The notes: generated from the letters alone by a model not told the origin. Positions 9,147 to 17,348 are shown, counted from the stretch's first letter. The stretch is DNA of 64,000 bases from Bacteroidales bacterium (GCA_021371955.1 JAJFVD010000005.1:124001-188000), one strand, 5' to 3'. Numbers and translations are program-made.

Positions 9147-10386
9147 TATCATCCCAACTGGTTGTAAATCTTTTTGACAAGAAATTCTGATTTGCTCTTA
9201 TTCTTTCAACTCCTTCTGTTGCAGTAAAAACAGTATGTCTGCCATAACGGGTATTCATCTCGTCCATTACAGTCATTACTGAACTCTCTTTAGAACGGTC
9301 TCTTTCGTAAAATAAAGGAGGAGTTATATCGGATTTACGGCTTATGGCTGTAATAATTACCCCGGCCTTTTTATAACCGTATCCCTGTTTGTATATTTTT
9401 TTTAGTCCGTAACAAGCTCTCTCAATCAGCTCAAATGTGCTGTCCGTATAGCTCTCAATAGGAATCAATGTACTCTCATAATGGTGATTTCCCTGCTCTT
9501 TGAATCTGTTCGTGAGTATAAAAACAATAATCTCCCTGCAAACTCCTTTTTGCCTGCGCAGCTTTTCTGCGGAAGATGCTGTAAAAGTGGCCACGGCTTT
9601 GCAGATTTCTTCAAATTCGTAAATGTCCTCCGAGAAGCTCCTGCTTGTGCAAATTTGTTTTTTATCCGAAATTCTGTCTTCGAGTTCAATGCAGGACTCT
9701 CCATTCAACTCTTTCCAGCTTTTGAGTCCAACAATTCCCATTTTTGACTTGACCCACCCCTGTGAAATAGCTGTAAAATCAGAAGCAGTATTTATCCTGT
9801 TGAGTTTTAGCATTTTTGAATATGCACGTCCAACTCCCCAAACATCTTCAATCGGAAATTTTAATAGTACCTTTTTTATGTCTTCATCTCTATCCATCAG
9901 ACAAAAGCTATTAAGCCTCGGATATTTTTTGGATAGCTTTGCTGCAACTTTAGCCAGCGTTTTTGTGTGAGATATTCCCAGACTTATGGGAATACCTGTT
10001 TCTCGCTTTATTTTGCGGACGATTTCTTCTCCTGTAGACTTTATTGCTTCATAAGACATTCCGTCAAAATTCAGAAAAGCTTCATCAATTGAGTAAACTT
10101 CTATTGAAGGGACAAAACTTTTCAGCCTGTCCATAACTCTGGCGGAGAGATCCCCGTATAAAGGGAAATTTGCGGAATAGGAGATAACCCCATTTTTTTC
10201 TGCCAGATCCTTGATCTTAAAAACAGGTTCACCCATTTTTATTCCAAGTGCCTTAGCCTCATCTGAGCGTGAAATTACACATCCGTCGTTATTGCTCAAA
10301 ACAACAACCGGTTTTCCTGTGAGAGAAGGGTTAAACACCCTCTCGCAGCTTACAAAAAAATTATTGCAGTCTGCCAGGCCATACAT
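9127..10386 (-). CDS. umuC: Y-family DNA polymerase V catalytic subunit UmuC
   Basis: UmuC is the translesion polymerase of the SOS mutagenesis system and works with processed UmuD'. The protein is 419 residues, close to E. coli UmuC. It starts MYGLADCNNFFVSCERVF, with the first metal-binding Asp at residue 6. The second catalytic block is VYSIDEAFLNF, and the finger region has SNNDGCVISRS. A helix-hairpin-helix, the little-finger domain and a UmuC-type C-terminus follow. It overlaps the VanZ-like gene upstream by 26 bases and the GH13 gene downstream by 20. It is the last gene of the DUF362-umuD-vanZ-umuC run. Confidence 0.96.
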   Translation of the reverse strand: MYGLADCNNFFVSCERVFNPSLTGKPVVVLSNNDGCVISRSDEAKALGIKMGEPVFKIKDLAEKNGVISYSANFPLYGDLSARVMDRLKSFVPSIEVYSIDEAFLNFDGMSYEAIKSTGEEIVRKIKRETGIPISLGISHTKTLAKVAAKLSKKYPRLNSFCLMDRDEDIKKVLLKFPIEDVWGVGRAYSKMLKLNRINTASDFTAISQGWVKSKMGIVGLKSWKELNGESCIELEDRISDKKQICTSRSFSEDIYEFEEICKAVATFTASSAEKLRRQKGVCREIIVFILTNRFKEQGNHHYESTLIPIESYTDSTFELIERACYGLKKIYKQGYGYKKAGVIITAISRKSDITPPLFYERDRSKESSVMTVMDEMNTRYGRHTVFTATEGVERIRANQNFLSKRFTTSWDDIIEVKV

Positions 10387-10777
10387 GTTTCACAATACTA
10401 TTAAATATAAGAAGCAGAATTGTTCCGGTAAAAACTCCTGTGATGTTTGCCAGGATGTCTGCGGGGTCAAAATCTCTGTTTGGATTTAAATTCTGCAATG
10501 TTTCTGCAACTAGAGCAAGTATTATTCCGGATAAAACCAGCATTGCAATGTCATATCTGCCGAATACTTTTTTAAACCAGCCCTCAATGGCATGCCATGC
10601 CAAAAATGGATATGGAAGGAACATTATGAAATGGGCTATCCTGTCTGCGCGAATTCCAAAAAAGTACAAGGAAAGGTCAATTCCCGTATCCTTGAATGTA
10701 TGTAAGCAAAGAAAAAATACTGCTGACAGATATACCAAAAAAAGCAATTTAAAAATTACAACTATTTTTTTCATCAT
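10361..10777 (-). CDS. VanZ-family membrane protein between umuD and umuC
   Basis: This 138-residue integral membrane protein has about four hydrophobic helices. The VanZ-like pattern appears in the segments RADRIAHFIMFLPYPFLAWHA and ILALVAETLQNLNPNRDFDPADILANITG, the latter carrying the typical E-x-x-Q ... R-x-x-D-x-x-D-x-x-x-N signature. VanZ proteins are linked to low-level teicoplanin resistance, but most members have no known role. I take the ATG at 10777 as the start because it overlaps the umuD TGA (ATGA), the usual coupling arrangement; the upstream ATG at 10810 lies inside umuD. Its 3' end runs 26 bases into umuC, so it is embedded in the polymerase operon. Confidence 0.85.
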   Translation of the reverse strand: MMKKIVVIFKLLFLVYLSAVFFLCLHTFKDTGIDLSLYFFGIRADRIAHFIMFLPYPFLAWHAIEGWFKKVFGRYDIAMLVLSGIILALVAETLQNLNPNRDFDPADILANITGVFTGTILLLIFNSIVKHVWPGRLQ

Positions 10778-11205
10778 ACTCTCTTTATCAAATAGCGGAC
10801 AATTCCCCATACATAAAAATCATTGTCCTTTTTTACCCTTATGGGTTTAAATTTTTCGTTAGCCGGAACAAGCAAAAGGTCCTCGCCCTCCAGTCTTACC
10901 CTCTTGAGAGTGAATTCTCCATCCAAAAAACAAACGGCAAGACAGTTTTCATAAGGTTCAACTGAACGGTCAATTACAAGAATATCCCCGTCGTCTACAC
11001 CGTCATTTATCATGCTTTCTCCCTTTACCCTTGCATAAAAAGTGGATGATGGATTTTTAACAAGTGCCCTGTTAAGGTCCATTGTGCTTTCCATATGGTT
11101 TTCGGCAGGAGAGGGAAATCCTGCGTTGACCGGAGTATCAGAAAACTTAATATTTAACGATTCAACCGAATCCGGTTTTAGAATTTCAATGTTTTTGTTT
11201 TTCAT
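10774..11205 (-). CDS. umuD: UmuD, LexA-like self-cleaving subunit of Pol V
   Basis: UmuD is cleaved under RecA stimulation to UmuD', which activates UmuC. From the ATG at 11205 the protein is 143 residues, the E. coli size. The cleavage site is Ala28-Gly29 in VNAGFPSPAENH. The catalytic dyad is Ser64 in VKGESM and Lys101 in FTLKRV, all in S24-peptidase positions. An upstream ATG at 11226 exists, but it overlaps the DUF362 gene, and the 11205 start sits 2 bases beyond that gene's stop. No DNA-binding domain is present, so it is UmuD rather than LexA. I see no obvious LexA box upstream of the operon. Confidence 0.95.
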   Translation of the reverse strand: MKNKNIEILKPDSVESLNIKFSDTPVNAGFPSPAENHMESTMDLNRALVKNPSSTFYARVKGESMINDGVDDGDILVIDRSVEPYENCLAVCFLDGEFTLKRVRLEGEDLLLVPANEKFKPIRVKKDNDFYVWGIVRYLIKRV

Positions 11206-11206
11206 G

Positions 11207-12325
11207 TCAGATAGTAAATAGTTCATAATCAGTATTTCCTATTCCGAGCTTCTGAGCATATTCCAGACCGGCTCTCCAGTCGGTATTAGGGTGGACGATT
11301 TTGAATTTATCTTCGCCTCTGCAAGGCAAATTGTCTCCTTTATCGAAAATTGCACTTCCGGATATTGCCGGAGCATTATTTACAAGGTCTGCACAAGCCA
11401 TGTCCAGAGCCACAGGATCAAAAGAAGCCGCAATTCCGATATCTGCAACCAGCGGTGCATCATTGCTGCCCCAGCAGTCACAGTTGGGCGAAACATTCAT
11501 AATAAAACTTATATGGAAACTGGGTTTGTCCTTTAAAACGGCATAAGAATATTCAGCAATTTTCTTATTCAGGACAACAGAGTCGCCCCAGTCTGCAACC
11601 ACTGCCGATTCATACTGGCAAACTGCCACACACTGTCCGCATCCGGTACACTTTTCGTAGTCAATAAAGGCTTTTTTATCTTCATCGAGGTGTATGGAGT
11701 CATGGGCGCAGTTTTTTACGCAAATCCGGCATCCGGTACAGTTTTTCCGGTCGATTACCGGTTTGGATGCCGAGTGAAGCTCCAGTTTGCCTCCTACTGA
11801 TGCCGATCCCATCCCAATATTTTTAAGTACTCCGCCAAATCCGGCCTGTTCATGGCCTTTAAAATGGGTCATTGTAACAATTATATCTGAATCCGCGATA
11901 GCAGTACCAATTCTTGCTGTTTTGAAATACTCCCCATTGATGGAAATTTCTCTGAAGTCAGTACCTTTTATTCCATCTGCAATAATAACATGAGCAGAGG
12001 CAGAGAGGGGGTTGAATCCATTTTCTGAAGCACTTTGCAAATGATTTATGGCATCCGATCTTCTGCCGGAGTAAAGAGTATTGCAATCCGTAAGGTAGGG
12101 GAGTGCTCCCATGGACTTAAGTATCCCTACAACTCTGGAAACATAATTGGGTCTTATATATGCAAGATTACCCGGTTCTCCGAAGTGAATCTTTATAGCC
12201 ACAAACTTTTTATTAAAGTCAATGCATTTAATATCAGCTTTTTTGATGACTTTTTCGAGTTTATCCAGAAGATTTGTCTGAGGAGAAGTTCTTGTATCTG
12301 TAAAGTAAACTTTCGATTTTTCCAT
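11207..12325 (-). CDS. DUF362 domain protein with two 4Fe-4S ferredoxin clusters
   Basis: This 372-residue protein is of unknown precise role. The N-terminal DUF362 domain (about 1-185) contains FVAIKIHFGEPGN and THFKGHEQAGFGG. It is followed by two ferredoxin motifs, CTGCRICVKNC and CTGCGQCVAVC (about residues 195-240), and then DUF362 resumes. The cysteine spacing CxxCxxCxxxC predicts two [4Fe-4S] clusters and a redox function. I use the ATG at 12325; the frame also opens at a TTG nine bases earlier. It is the first gene before umuD, with one base between stop and start, so it is very likely cotranscribed with the translesion polymerase genes. Confidence 0.9.
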   Translation of the reverse strand: MEKSKVYFTDTRTSPQTNLLDKLEKVIKKADIKCIDFNKKFVAIKIHFGEPGNLAYIRPNYVSRVVGILKSMGALPYLTDCNTLYSGRRSDAINHLQSASENGFNPLSASAHVIIADGIKGTDFREISINGEYFKTARIGTAIADSDIIVTMTHFKGHEQAGFGGVLKNIGMGSASVGGKLELHSASKPVIDRKNCTGCRICVKNCAHDSIHLDEDKKAFIDYEKCTGCGQCVAVCQYESAVVADWGDSVVLNKKIAEYSYAVLKDKPSFHISFIMNVSPNCDCWGSNDAPLVADIGIAASFDPVALDMACADLVNNAPAISGSAIFDKGDNLPCRGEDKFKIVHPNTDWRAGLEYAQKLGIGNTDYELFTI

Positions 12326-12345
12326 ATGGTACAATTTAATTCATG

Positions 12346-12498: not shown

Positions 12499-13785
12499 AT
12501 GTCAAAAAAATCAACTGTTTCACTATTTTGCGGCACAAAGGCAAAAGTAGCTGGTTTGGCGTTCCTGTTGTTTTTCGTAAGCATTGGAGCCTGCGCGCAG
12601 AGTTTAGTTGAAAGCAGTCTGATTAATTCGGGGTTCGAAAATGTAAGACACATCACTGCCGACGGAAAAGAAATTGTCTTTCTTGAAAGCAGGGCCTTTA
12701 CCACAAACGAGCGGCTTTTGAATGCAGCAATGAAATCCGTTGAAGAGGTTTCGGATCAGTTTACTGCCAAAAATATTGAGATAATCCTTATGGAAGAGAG
12801 AATTCCAAAATTCAGAATGTTTGCTTCGCTGGAAACTCCGGGAGCAGCAGGACGTCTAAACTGGAAATCGGACTTCAATGTTAGCGACAGCTACAATAAA
12901 TTAAATCTTGAGAGTAACCTGGAAAATAAAGAGACGAAGTTTTACAATTCCTCTTTCGGAAAAATTGATATATTATTTTATCCTATTTTTCGGTTTAAAA
13001 ATTCGGTATTGAATAAAATGTACCTTTTGCAGCTAAATGTTAATCCCACTATAGAGATGTCACTTTGGAAAGGAGCATCGGTAACCGCTCAGATAATATT
13101 TCCTGTTGTGAACGATTACTCAACTGAAGAAGGGAAAATCAGACCCGGTTACCTCACTTTTTCTCAGCAATTCCGGTTACCTTATAATGTTTTTGCAAAA
13201 GCAACGGTTGGAAATTTTTCAATGTTTCGCGGAGGAGTTGACTTAAAGTTGTTCCGTCCTGTTGGAAAACGCATTGGGGTTTACGGGCAGATAAGCTATA
13301 CTGCATATTCGCTTCCGATGTTTGACGACTGGTATTACAACGACTTTGACAAGCTTACCTGGAAAATTGGTGCAAATTATTTTGTTAAACCTTGGAATTT
13401 AATGTTTAACTTTAGTGTTGCAAAAAACCTTGGAAAATTTGACCCTGCAGACGAAGCATTTGCCGGGAAAGATATATCCGCAAGAGGAGAAATAACAAGA
13501 CACTTTAAGAATGCATCAGTTGGATTTTATATACAGACTATGGCAATCAAGGAATTCCCTCTCAACGGCGGGTTTTTCTTTGCCATTGCTCTGCCGCCCT
13601 ATAAACAATTTCGAAACAAGTTTGTTAGAGTCTCTACAGGAAACTATTTCCCGCTGGAGTACATTGCAAGGCCATACCCCGATTACGGGAGGTATTTCAC
13701 AACATCTCCGTCAGAAAATTCGTCGGATAACTTTTTTACAAAAATGCGTTTAAATCAAATCATTCTAAATTCAACCAATAATTAA
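12499..13785 (+). CDS. Exported beta-barrel protein resembling the C-terminal half of YjbH
   Basis: This 428-residue protein has a signal peptide ending near GACAQS (about residue 35). The early part (INSGFENVRHITADGKEIVFLESR) and the strand-rich C-terminus (GEITRHFKNASVGFYIQT, then NGGFFFAIALPP) follow the pattern I associate with the second half of YjbH/GfcD, outer-membrane proteins of exopolysaccharide export. Many alternating aromatic/polar strands suggest a beta barrel. Ten bases separate it from the lipoprotein gene, whose far side carries a YjbH N-terminal-like gene. The similarity is pattern recognition from sequence, not a search, so the name is tentative; an outer-membrane location is more certain. 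Confidence 0.6.
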   Translation: MSKKSTVSLFCGTKAKVAGLAFLLFFVSIGACAQSLVESSLINSGFENVRHITADGKEIVFLESRAFTTNERLLNAAMKSVEEVSDQFTAKNIEIILMEERIPKFRMFASLETPGAAGRLNWKSDFNVSDSYNKLNLESNLENKETKFYNSSFGKIDILFYPIFRFKNSVLNKMYLLQLNVNPTIEMSLWKGASVTAQIIFPVVNDYSTEEGKIRPGYLTFSQQFRLPYNVFAKATVGNFSMFRGGVDLKLFRPVGKRIGVYGQISYTAYSLPMFDDWYYNDFDKLTWKIGANYFVKPWNLMFNFSVAKNLGKFDPADEAFAGKDISARGEITRHFKNASVGFYIQTMAIKEFPLNGGFFFAIALPPYKQFRNKFVRVSTGNYFPLEYIARPYPDYGRYFTTSPSENSSDNFFTKMRLNQIILNSTNN

Positions 13786-13795
13786 CCAATTTTCT

Positions 13796-15130
13796 ATGAA
13801 AGCAAGCAAAATCTTTTCAAGACTAATCAAGACTGCTTCTGCCAGTTTCTTGATTGCTGCACTCGTAGGTGCGGCTTCGTGTACAAAAACACCCGATCCT
13901 ATTCCTACTCCGGAACCATTACCTGCGACCTACACAATTAAAGGACAGGTTTACAACCAGAAAACAAATGCTGTATTACCCGGTGTTACTGTTACAATGG
14001 GTACCAAAACAGCGACTACAGACAGTTTCGGTAAATTTGAATTTGCAAACCTGACAACTTCAGGTAAGTATAACATTGTTCTGACAAAAGCTGATTTCTT
14101 CTCTGCAACTTATTCTCTTGAATTCCCTACAGCTGCTCCGAATCACGCTCTTGTATTCAGTTTAACAATGACAATGGTTCCTTATGTTCCCGGCATTACT
14201 CCTTTGGATCCAACTGTCGGCGGTACAATTGCAATTGAAGGCGGCGCATCAGATGCGACACTTACAATTCCTTCCGGAACAACCGTTAAAGATGCAAACG
14301 GAGCTGCCGTAACCGGCCCTATCCTTATTACAGCAGTAGAAGTTGATGACATTTATGTACAGAATACAGTTAACAATCCTGGTATTATGACTCTTCGTTT
14401 TGAGCCATCGGGATATGTATTCAGCAAACCATTGATTATAGCTATTGACAATCCTCTTACAAACTGGCAATATGCAGAACTTCAGCTTGAGTATTTCAAC
14501 TCAGCACTTGGTGTATGGGAAGTTCAGACTACTCCTGTGACTTATACTTCAACAGCTAATGATTATCTTACATCAATTACCCACTTCTCTCTTTACAAGA
14601 TATCATTTAAGTCTCCTTCAGTGGCTGGTGCTACAACTGTTAAACCGATTAAGGTTCTTGACAGTCTTATGATTAACAGAGGTCTGACAGCATACAGTCA
14701 AACAGCAGCGAGATATATTGAAAGCACAGGTTACAAATTTGAAACTCCTCTTGCAACAACACTTACAGCAGCAGGAATCACAGGTGCAGACCAGACCGAA
14801 CTTATCGCTTCAATTACAGCTCTTGTTAAAGCTAATTACAATGGCGTTGCCCCTTTAACTGCCTTTGGAACAAAAACCACAACACTTGCTGTTACCAGAT
14901 CAATTCCATCAATGTACTATCAGGAGACAACAGCTACACAAAACTTTACTTCGAAGAAATTTACAATTAAGCTAAAAGATAAAGTAGGTACAGTTAACAA
15001 AACTCTTGATATCATTACTGTTAAAGCAGATATGGTTTCTCTGTCTTACAACCTTAAGGTATACGATTCTCACGCGCACAGCCACCTTCATAGTCACGAC
15101 CATGGTCTTGGCGGCGGCGGTACAATTTAA
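13796..15130 (+). CDS. Surface lipoprotein with CarboxypepD_reg-like domain and alternating-His tail
   Basis: This 444-residue protein has a lipoprotein signal (lipobox VGAASC, Cys about 29) followed by a Pro/Thr-rich linker. Residues ~46-115 form a carboxypeptidase-regulatory-like beta-sandwich (YTIKGQVYNQKTNAVLPGVTV ... GKFEFANL). Residues ~140-225 resemble a ZU5-type fold (GGTIAIEGGASDATLTIPSG). The C-terminus has six His at every second residue (426-436), then GLGGGGTI. That tail looks like a flexible metal-binding segment. The gene lies between two YjbH-half-like genes, 10 bases after one and 20 before the other, so it probably works with them at the outer membrane. No function can be assigned from family alone. 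Confidence 0.8.
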   Translation: MKASKIFSRLIKTASASFLIAALVGAASCTKTPDPIPTPEPLPATYTIKGQVYNQKTNAVLPGVTVTMGTKTATTDSFGKFEFANLTTSGKYNIVLTKADFFSATYSLEFPTAAPNHALVFSLTMTMVPYVPGITPLDPTVGGTIAIEGGASDATLTIPSGTTVKDANGAAVTGPILITAVEVDDIYVQNTVNNPGIMTLRFEPSGYVFSKPLIIAIDNPLTNWQYAELQLEYFNSALGVWEVQTTPVTYTSTANDYLTSITHFSLYKISFKSPSVAGATTVKPIKVLDSLMINRGLTAYSQTAARYIESTGYKFETPLATTLTAAGITGADQTELIASITALVKANYNGVAPLTAFGTKTTTLAVTRSIPSMYYQETTATQNFTSKKFTIKLKDKVGTVNKTLDIITVKADMVSLSYNLKVYDSHAHSHLHSHDHGLGGGGTI

Positions 15131-15150
15131 TTCATCGGTTAACTGACAAT

Positions 15151-15888
15151 ATGATTTTCAGTAAATCGATTAACAGGATGATGTTGGGAGCAGTTGTTCT
15201 GCTCCTGACATCTTCTTTTTATTTGAAAGCACAATCTACCCTTGGTGTTACAGGGCTTCTCAACAGCCCTTCGGCAGAGATGTCGCCGGATGGCACTGTT
15301 AAAATCGGAGGCAATTTTTTGCCAAAAGGATTTTTACCGGGTACCTGGGATTACAATACATTCAATTATTTTCTGAATATTACACCTGTTCCGTTTGCAG
15401 AAATTGCCATTACTAATACTGCACTGGACAATTTTAACATAGGAAGAATCACTAATCAGGACAGAGCAATTTGTATCAGATTAAGACCGTTAAAAGAAGG
15501 AAAATACTGGCCTGCAGTAGTTGTCGGTTCTAACGATGTCCTAACATCAGTTTCACCTTCGTTAATTGGAAGTGATAGCGGAAATAAATTTTTTGGAACA
15601 ACATATCTTGCTCTTTCAAAACACGTTGACCTTGCTGGAAACACTATCGGGATTCATGCTGCTTATAATATACCTGTAAGTACAAGTTCTAATCAAAAAT
15701 TTCCCATTTCAGGAGGAATATCATTCACCCCAAAATTTTATAAGGATCTCAATATAATAGCAGAGTACGATACCAAAAGTTTCAATATCGGTGCGAACAT
15801 TATTGTTTTCAAATATCTTTATTTTCAGTTTCTGCTAAATAAATTCAGGCACCCTGTGGCTGGTTTTCAGTTTCAATTCACCATTTAG
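15151..15888 (+). CDS. Exported protein resembling the N-terminal half of YjbH
   Basis: This 245-residue protein has a signal peptide ending near YLKAQS. Directly after it comes GVTGLLNSPSAEMSPDGTVKIGG, which matches the opening of YjbH-family proteins (a G-x-GLL-x-xP-x-A pattern, then DG). Alternating strands continue to the C-terminal aromatic ending FQFQFTI, a typical outer-membrane beta-barrel signature. It is about a third of full YjbH length. Together with the gene at 12499 it could rebuild a whole YjbH-like protein from two chains. It is the last gene of the three-gene operon; no terminator hairpin is evident in the 68 bases before the next gene. Confidence 0.65.
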   Translation: MIFSKSINRMMLGAVVLLLTSSFYLKAQSTLGVTGLLNSPSAEMSPDGTVKIGGNFLPKGFLPGTWDYNTFNYFLNITPVPFAEIAITNTALDNFNIGRITNQDRAICIRLRPLKEGKYWPAVVVGSNDVLTSVSPSLIGSDSGNKFFGTTYLALSKHVDLAGNTIGIHAAYNIPVSTSSNQKFPISGGISFTPKFYKDLNIIAEYDTKSFNIGANIIVFKYLYFQFLLNKFRHPVAGFQFQFTI

Positions 15889-15956: not shown

Positions 15957-17348
15957 ATGAAAACAAAACTATTTATTGCAGTTCTTATGCTGCTCCCGTA
16001 CTCTCTTTTTTCACAGACTATTGAAGGAAGTTGGTACGGACTCCTTAAAACAGAAAAATTCGAACTGAAGATTGTTTTTAATATTTCTAAAACCGATACT
16101 CTTTATACTGCAACAATGGATAGCCCGGATCAGGGAGTAAGGGGTATACCGGTCTCAAAAACTGAATTCAGCAATTCAATTGTCAAATTATTTGTGAGTT
16201 CGGCGATGGTTGAATATTCCGGAGTATTCATGGGAGATAAAATTATTGGGACTTTTAAACAAGGCCAGGCAACTATTCCACTGAACCTCTCTAAACGACC
16301 ATTTGAAGGGCCTAAAAGGCCTCAGGAGCCAAGGCCGCCTTTCCTGTATTCAACGGAAGAGATAGTCTTTAGCAACTCAAAAGCGAGCATTGAACTGGCC
16401 GGAACTCTGACCCTCCCCAAAGAGGGCAAGCCTAAGGCAGTTGTTATCCTCATATCAGGCAGCGGGCCTCAGAACAGAGATGAAGAGATAATGAATCACA
16501 AACCTTTTTTACTATGGGCAGATTATCTTACAAAAATAGGAATAGGAGTCCTTCGTTTTGACGATAGGGGAATTGGAAAGTCAAAAGGAAGTTTCGCTTT
16601 GGCTACTTCATTCGATTTTGCCGAAGATGTGAACTCAGCAGTTGAATATTTAAAAAGGAGAAATGATTTGGCCGGAGTTAAAATTGGATTGATGGGCCAT
16701 AGTGAAGGAGGTATAATTGCACCTTTTGTTGCTTCAAAAAGAAGTGATATCAGCTTTTTAGTTTTGCTTGCTGCACCTGGAGTAAAAGGCTCGGAAATCA
16801 TTGTTTCGCAACAAGGATTAATTGGTAAGGCATCAGGTGTTCCTGACTCTGAAATTGATAAATATTCAATTATAACAAGGAACTTGTATAGCATTATTGA
16901 CAAAGAGCGTAATAACCCCGGCTTAAAAAAACTTCTCAGTGATTTCATTAAATCCAATGCCGGAGAAGAAGTATCCGAGAGCCAGATTAATCAGCAAGTG
17001 AATGCCATCACGACACCATGGATGCTTACTTTTCTTAATTATGACCCGGCGGATGCTCTGACGAGGATTAAAATTCCAATTTTAGCAATAAATGGCACAA
17101 AAGATCTTCAGGTTCCGTATGAAGTAAATCTTAATGCGCTTGAAAAATCATTATTGGAAGCTCATGGAGGAAATACAGATTCTTTGAAAAAATATGTTAC
17201 AATTAAAAGCATAGAAGGCGTAAATCACTTGTTTCAGAGAGCCGAAACAGGACTTCCCGCTGAATATTCAAAAATCGAGGAGACAATATCTCCTGAAGTT
17301 CTGGAATTAATATCAGGATGGATACTTGAAAAGGGAATAACTTACTGA
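15957..17348 (+). CDS. Secreted alpha/beta-hydrolase (serine esterase/peptidase type)
   Basis: This is a 463-residue protein counted from the ATG at 15957. The frame also opens at a TTG at 15918, but the ATG gives a clean signal peptide (MKTKLFIAVLMLLPYSLFSQ). Residues ~20-125 form a beta-rich N-terminal domain. The alpha/beta hydrolase fold follows, with the nucleophile elbow GHSEGG, an acid in INGTKDLQVP and a catalytic His in VNHLF. The oxyanion region ISGSGPQNRDE matches a widespread Bacteroidota family annotated as alpha/beta hydrolase or acyl-CoA-thioesterase-like. The substrate is unknown; location should be the periplasm. It overlaps the convergent gene by 7 bases. Confidence 0.88.
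   Translation: MKTKLFIAVLMLLPYSLFSQTIEGSWYGLLKTEKFELKIVFNISKTDTLYTATMDSPDQGVRGIPVSKTEFSNSIVKLFVSSAMVEYSGVFMGDKIIGTFKQGQATIPLNLSKRPFEGPKRPQEPRPPFLYSTEEIVFSNSKASIELAGTLTLPKEGKPKAVVILISGSGPQNRDEEIMNHKPFLLWADYLTKIGIGVLRFDDRGIGKSKGSFALATSFDFAEDVNSAVEYLKRRNDLAGVKIGLMGHSEGGIIAPFVASKRSDISFLVLLAAPGVKGSEIIVSQQGLIGKASGVPDSEIDKYSIITRNLYSIIDKERNNPGLKKLLSDFIKSNAGEEVSESQINQQVNAITTPWMLTFLNYDPADALTRIKIPILAINGTKDLQVPYEVNLNALEKSLLEAHGGNTDSLKKYVTIKSIEGVNHLFQRAETGLPAEYSKIEETISPEVLELISGWILEKGITY

Follow-up and report, generated by a model that had tools for sequence, protein, structure and literature searches.

The operon at positions 12499–15888 of the window (the whole analysed stretch of Bacteroidales DNA, 64,000 nucleotides) encodes a two-chain GfcD/YjbH accompanied by a different lipoprotein, an arrangement that is phylum-wide in the Bacteroidota. 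The first gene, g1, encodes the periplasmic middle domain and the second barrel, the third gene, g3, encodes the N-terminal barrel, and a lipoprotein gene, g2, lies between them. The operon is predicted to specify a two-chain GfcD-type exporter of surface polysaccharide, a function that we consider probable.

All three ORFs lie on the plus strand and are intact. g1 (12499–13785; 428 aa) contains a periplasmic alpha/beta domain (residues ~36–140, 12604–12918) and a beta-barrel (residues ~156–389, 12964–13665), which in the predicted model are the counterparts of GfcD-M and GfcD-C, respectively. The g2 lipoprotein (13796–15130; 444 aa) follows after 10 bp, and g3 (15151–15888; 245 aa) follows g2 after 20 bp and encodes the YjbH/GfcD N-terminal 12-strand barrel. 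g1 and g3 each carry their own signal peptide, as the initial annotation had described together with the intervening lipoprotein and its short spacing. Both signal peptides end in AQ, and the Cys of the g1 signal peptide varies among congeners. In congeners with contigs spanning the locus the order is g1-g2-g3, usually followed by g4, a secreted alpha/beta hydrolase (EstD/S33-like; 15957–17348, plus strand), which lies downstream of g3 in most congeners and is peripheral to the operon. The operon is missing from some congeners, one single-contig genome among them. Upstream of g1, a divergent gene (11207–12334, minus strand) encodes a DUF362 protein carrying two 4Fe-4S motifs; it also adjoins the operon in the nearest relative (L039).

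Residues 28–167 of g3 match positions 2–126 of the YjbH profile (PF06082) with an E value of 3.3e-11, above the Pfam cut-off, and all 34 members of the g3 alignment match the YjbH family at E 0.01 or better. When compared by hhalign with ten full-length proteobacterial YjbH/GfcD proteins, the g3 profile aligns to residues 29–277 of E. coli YjbH (99.5%, E 7e-23). The predicted g3 model is a 12-strand barrel (pLDDT 79), and its best match among PDB structures is FapF (E 7e-6); a search against PDB sequences gave no match. The g1 sequence alone gave no match in Pfam, NCBIfam or PDB sequences. Its homologues are more informative: 19 of the 25 match PF06082 in Pfam, at profile positions ~275–598, and the g1 profile aligns by hhalign to residues 304–656 of E. 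coli YjbH (98.7%, E 3e-16, with ten full-length proteobacterial proteins). The AF2 model of g1 (pLDDT 82.5) shows an alpha/beta domain with three helices and five strands, which is the periplasmic middle domain and falls inside the block aligned to YjbH, and then a barrel in which 12 long strands are joined by a short 13th, with a low-confidence tail. Its matches to PDB structures are weak, with a porin first (E 6e-4) and the exopolysaccharide transporter PelBC second (E 1e-3). The initial annotation had read the start of g3 as the YjbH N-terminal pattern and g1 as the C-terminal half. Both readings hold, with the refinement that g1 includes the middle domain too; the profile searches place both products in YjbH/GfcD, neither in an unrelated barrel family, and the models show each as a whole domain set corresponding to a YjbH part.

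GfcD has been described from AlphaFold as a 12-strand barrel (residues 19–278), a periplasmic middle domain (279–423) and a 13-strand barrel (424–698) with a lateral gap, through which lipid-anchored polysaccharide was proposed to leave (PMC11494523). The middle domain consists of five strands and three helices (PMC8592465), and FapF-like N-halves and PgaA-like C-halves have been reported for GfcD/YjbH (PMC9603273). The break between g1 and g3 coincides with the GfcD-N/GfcD-M boundary, placed at 278/279 in PMC11494523, and the sequence comparisons support g1 and g3 as complementary, non-overlapping and collinear parts of YjbH/GfcD. As a control, the g1 profile was aligned to the g3 profile, which gave 3% in hhalign and indicates that the YjbH matches do not come from generic barrel similarity. 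Because the break falls at an inter-domain linker, the operon encodes a twin-barrel protein as two chains, and neither barrel is interrupted. The earlier description of a YjbH split in two was right about the two complementary chains; the division lies between domains of a predicted twin-barrel protein (PMC11494523) and is the rule throughout the phylum.

The extent of the two-chain state was surveyed in 392 Bacteroidota genomes, with a clear N-half defined by E < 1e-10. No fused g1-g3 chain was found in these genomes, and every credible match lies in a half-length ORF. One apparent fused YjbH (G509) resolves into two adjacent same-frame ORFs with a TAA between them, and the second opens with a separate hydrophobic leader. 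The C-half is present in 16 of the 17 genomes with a clear N-half, versus 21 genomes with a C-half overall (Fisher p ~3e-23, in a test that ignores shared ancestry); two genomes (G167 and G457) contain g1 with no g3 detected. The two-chain YjbH/GfcD is the rule in Bacteroidota. In several of them (e.g. family f76) g1 and g3 are unlinked, being widely separated or located on separate contigs, so assembly in trans would be required if the halves work together. Weak matches to the YjbH N-barrel were also seen in G187, G199, G264, G296 and other genomes, in ORFs of ~260–320 aa with no C-half detected; these possibly belong to a wider family of stand-alone FapF-like Bacteroidota barrels. We found no account of a split YjbH/GfcD in Bacteroidota in the open-licence literature. 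The neighbouring B. thetaiotaomicron genes BT0292 and BT0293 are both listed as YjbH domain-containing in the expression tables of PMC10434189, and the raw fact of the split is already visible in such database annotation.

The three-gene unit singled out by the initial annotation recurs in other Bacteroidota genomes, including Proteiniphilum, Butyricimonas, Bacteroides, Parabacteroides and Tannerella. The order g1-g2-g3 is found in the window's group, Proteiniphilum, Butyricimonas, a Mediterranea MAG and one Tannerella MAG; g3-g1-g2 in Bacteroides fragilis and Parabacteroides; and g2-g3-g1 in another Tannerella MAG and a Dysgonamonadaceae MAG. These three orders are all rotations of a single circular arrangement, from which one fecal contig (L059) departs. 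The order had earlier been called reversed, and g1 does precede g3 here; the gene circle occurs in three rotations, of which this is one. In two relatives from other classes (L070 and L072), a lipoprotein gene directly precedes g3 (g2 profile E 2e-24 and 1e-13, respectively). One congener (G011) carries a tandem duplication of the operon (L046, 4765–6525; 1.58 kb, 90% DNA identity). Of the additional copies, g2 is near whole while g1 and g3 are truncated, and a complete set lies alongside. The rotated orders could have arisen through such duplication and the subsequent loss of different copies, as this one captured case suggests.

Some copies of the operon lie in other contexts. Two 'Bacteriophage sp.' records from human feces (L060 and L059) carry it, the latter beside glycosyltransferase-like ORFs, and both look like fragments of Bacteroidales chromosomes, not phage. 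In Bacteroides fragilis (L119), the split-YjbH unit is closely followed by motor genes resembling GldL and GldM (10007–11848; Pfam E 2e-26 and 6e-32, respectively), and Phocaeicola plebeius (L120) contains ORFs with starts similar to those of these genes.

g2 contains a CarboxypepD_reg domain (Pfam), to which its relatives add a ZU5-like middle domain, and its lipobox Cys (C29) is invariant among homologues. It is less conserved than g1 and g3 and is linked to them in most Bacteroidales loci. The C-terminal His-Gly tail is conserved, with HDHGLGGGG here, HSGGGGQ among homologues and CHEGGGGE in distant relatives. In the window the tail region lies at 15041–15127, and the tail is kept even where the rest of the g2 homologues is poorly conserved. 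A relationship to GfcB/YjbF was ruled out by profile comparison (only 4%), and the match to the radical-SAM-associated lipoprotein family (TIGR04134) is below the cut-off and limited to the leader and first domain. That GfcB/YjbF and GfcC partners are lacking, noted earlier for the window, extends to the whole genome, which contains neither PF11102 (GfcB/YjbF) nor PF06251 (GfcC). Most of the proteobacterial YjbH genes that we examined stand next to a lipoprotein gene (YjbF) in polysaccharide loci, often without GfcC. The minimal unit in both phyla seems to be a barrel protein with a dedicated lipoprotein.

The link to polysaccharide comes from gene neighbourhoods. In Parabacteroides, OPX (Poly_export) and Wzc-like genes follow the unit immediately, and genes of these two types also precede a second g3 in P. 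goldsteinii. Copies in Tannerella, B. fragilis, another Bacteroides and Marinoscillum adjoin sugar-nucleotide, glycosyltransferase-like or OPX genes. In the window no polysaccharide genes lie beside the operon, and the single OPX gene of the genome sits on another contig. In E. coli, the group 4 capsule needs the gfc genes (PMC11494523), and GfcB-GfcC bind GfcD (PMC8592465). The OPX/Wzc-like genes in Parabacteroides and the polysaccharide genes beside other copies make a two-chain export portal the best-supported reading, and the fusion in proteobacteria of parts that are separate here is a classic sign of a functional pair. In the proposed mechanism, g3 would contribute the FapF-like N-barrel to an outer-membrane exporter of the GfcD/YjbH type, whose other membrane domain would come from g1. 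g1 would place its periplasmic middle domain at the mouth of the second, 12–13-strand barrel and would act as the polysaccharide conduit, by analogy with the GfcD model; the polysaccharide may be lipid-anchored and released sideways into the membrane. g2 would serve as a dedicated outer-membrane lipoprotein in place of the sequence-unrelated proteobacterial GfcB (with GfcC).

Three other explanations were weighed against the two-chain exporter. g1 and g3 might descend from YjbH halves and yet be independent outer-membrane proteins that share only a pathway, the twin-barrel unit then existing only in proteobacteria. The unlinked genes of several Bacteroidota, the complete domain set and signal peptide of each product, and the weak stand-alone N-half-like barrels in genomes without g1 all fit this explanation, which we nevertheless regard as unlikely, since the tight linkage in most Bacteroidales, the strong co-occurrence and the proteobacterial fusion favour joint action. 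Less probable again is that g2 is a cargo that g1 and g3 move to or display on the cell surface, so that the operon would serve lipoprotein assembly, not polysaccharide export. Such a role would suit a usual companion that is less conserved than g1 and g3 and keeps its His-Gly tail, next to a barrel resembling a polypeptide transporter, FapF. The units of relatives, however, sit inside capsule/OPX gene sets, and in polysaccharide loci proteobacterial YjbH, too, commonly stands next to a lipoprotein, YjbF. That the operon is a broken and decaying YjbH gene has next to no likelihood: three intact ORFs are conserved across many species, each half has its own signal peptide, and the truncated extra copies in L046, the one observation pointing to decay, lie beside a complete set.

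g3 also contains, within its signal-peptide codons, an RNA hairpin (15175–15217, plus strand), with a stem of 16–18 bp, a loop of 3–5 nt and then a T-rich stretch, which is the strongest hairpin in the 64-kb window. Its folding energy is far lower than that of dinucleotide shuffles (z -5.26), and the native hairpin is more stable than 400 of 400 synonymous recodings of the same peptide, which rules out signal-peptide composition as its cause. The same test on 15 more homologues gave at most one recoding in 400 as stable as the native sequence. Pairing is retained in 90.8% of the pair cells of 17 distinct sequences, versus 41–58% when it is slid; 12 of the 16 pairs show compensatory changes on both sides, and double-changed cells number 46, versus 14 in shuffles. 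With the covariance model, the mRNA strand reaches 58 bits versus 23 for the other strand, which together with the many G-U pairs indicates that the constraint acts on RNA. This model finds only one significant copy in the genome, which excludes a dispersed genomic repeat, and the hairpin has no Rfam family match.

The hairpin survives even in the truncated g3 copy of L046. Two Tannerella MAGs in which g3 follows g2 carry a comparable hairpin at the same codons, and one of these was tested by recoding. It is not seen where g3 stands first, nor in Butyricimonas and Mediterranea, though g3 follows g2 there; the synonymous recoding test gave no significant folding excess in Parabacteroides, Bacteroides and Butyricimonas. 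The T-rich stretch is present 3´ of the stem in most species and is compatible with conditional termination, protection of an mRNA end or slowed translation near the start. We tentatively suggest, as a possibility short of an even chance, a cis-acting RNA element that makes g3 expression translation-dependent: it would form unless covered by ribosomes, would then cause termination or destabilise the mRNA, and would thereby set the ratio of the two chains, which in E. coli is 1:1 by fusion.

Among multi-barrel outer-membrane proteins, GfcD/YjbH has been described as the largest group, one without a solved structure and with unproven function (PMC11494523). The natural two-chain version separates the barrels genetically, so that the role of each can be studied by deleting, tagging or purifying it on its own. 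The operon also gives a functional lead for the YjbH-annotated proteins of gut Bacteroides and Parabacteroides, and g2 is a candidate lipoprotein replacement for GfcB/GfcC. The hairpin in turn is an example, open to direct testing, of RNA structure constraining a coding sequence.

Compared with E. coli GfcD/YjbH (PF06082), the products contain the same three domains and a lipoprotein partner gene lies alongside. The domains form one chain in E. coli, whereas here they form two with separate signal peptides and the gene order is rotated; the lipoprotein is unrelated to GfcB/YjbF, GfcC is missing, and the window has no OPX, Wzc or phosphatase genes beside the operon. The OPX and Wzc-like genes of Parabacteroides are the counterparts of gfcE and etk. 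BT_0292/BT_0293 apparently represent the same two-chain state, judged from annotation, and the PMC10434189 tables that list them mention neither the split nor a lipoprotein partner. The amyloid transporter FapF (PDB codes: 5O65, 5O67 and 5O68) is the closest solved fold to the g3 barrel but shares only ~10% sequence identity with g3, and no fap-like genes were recognised among the neighbouring ORFs. The likeness of g1 to PelB/PgaA-type polysaccharide porins lies in its weak, second-ranked match to PelBC. PgaA carries long periplasmic repeats, in place of which g1 has a GfcD-M type domain.
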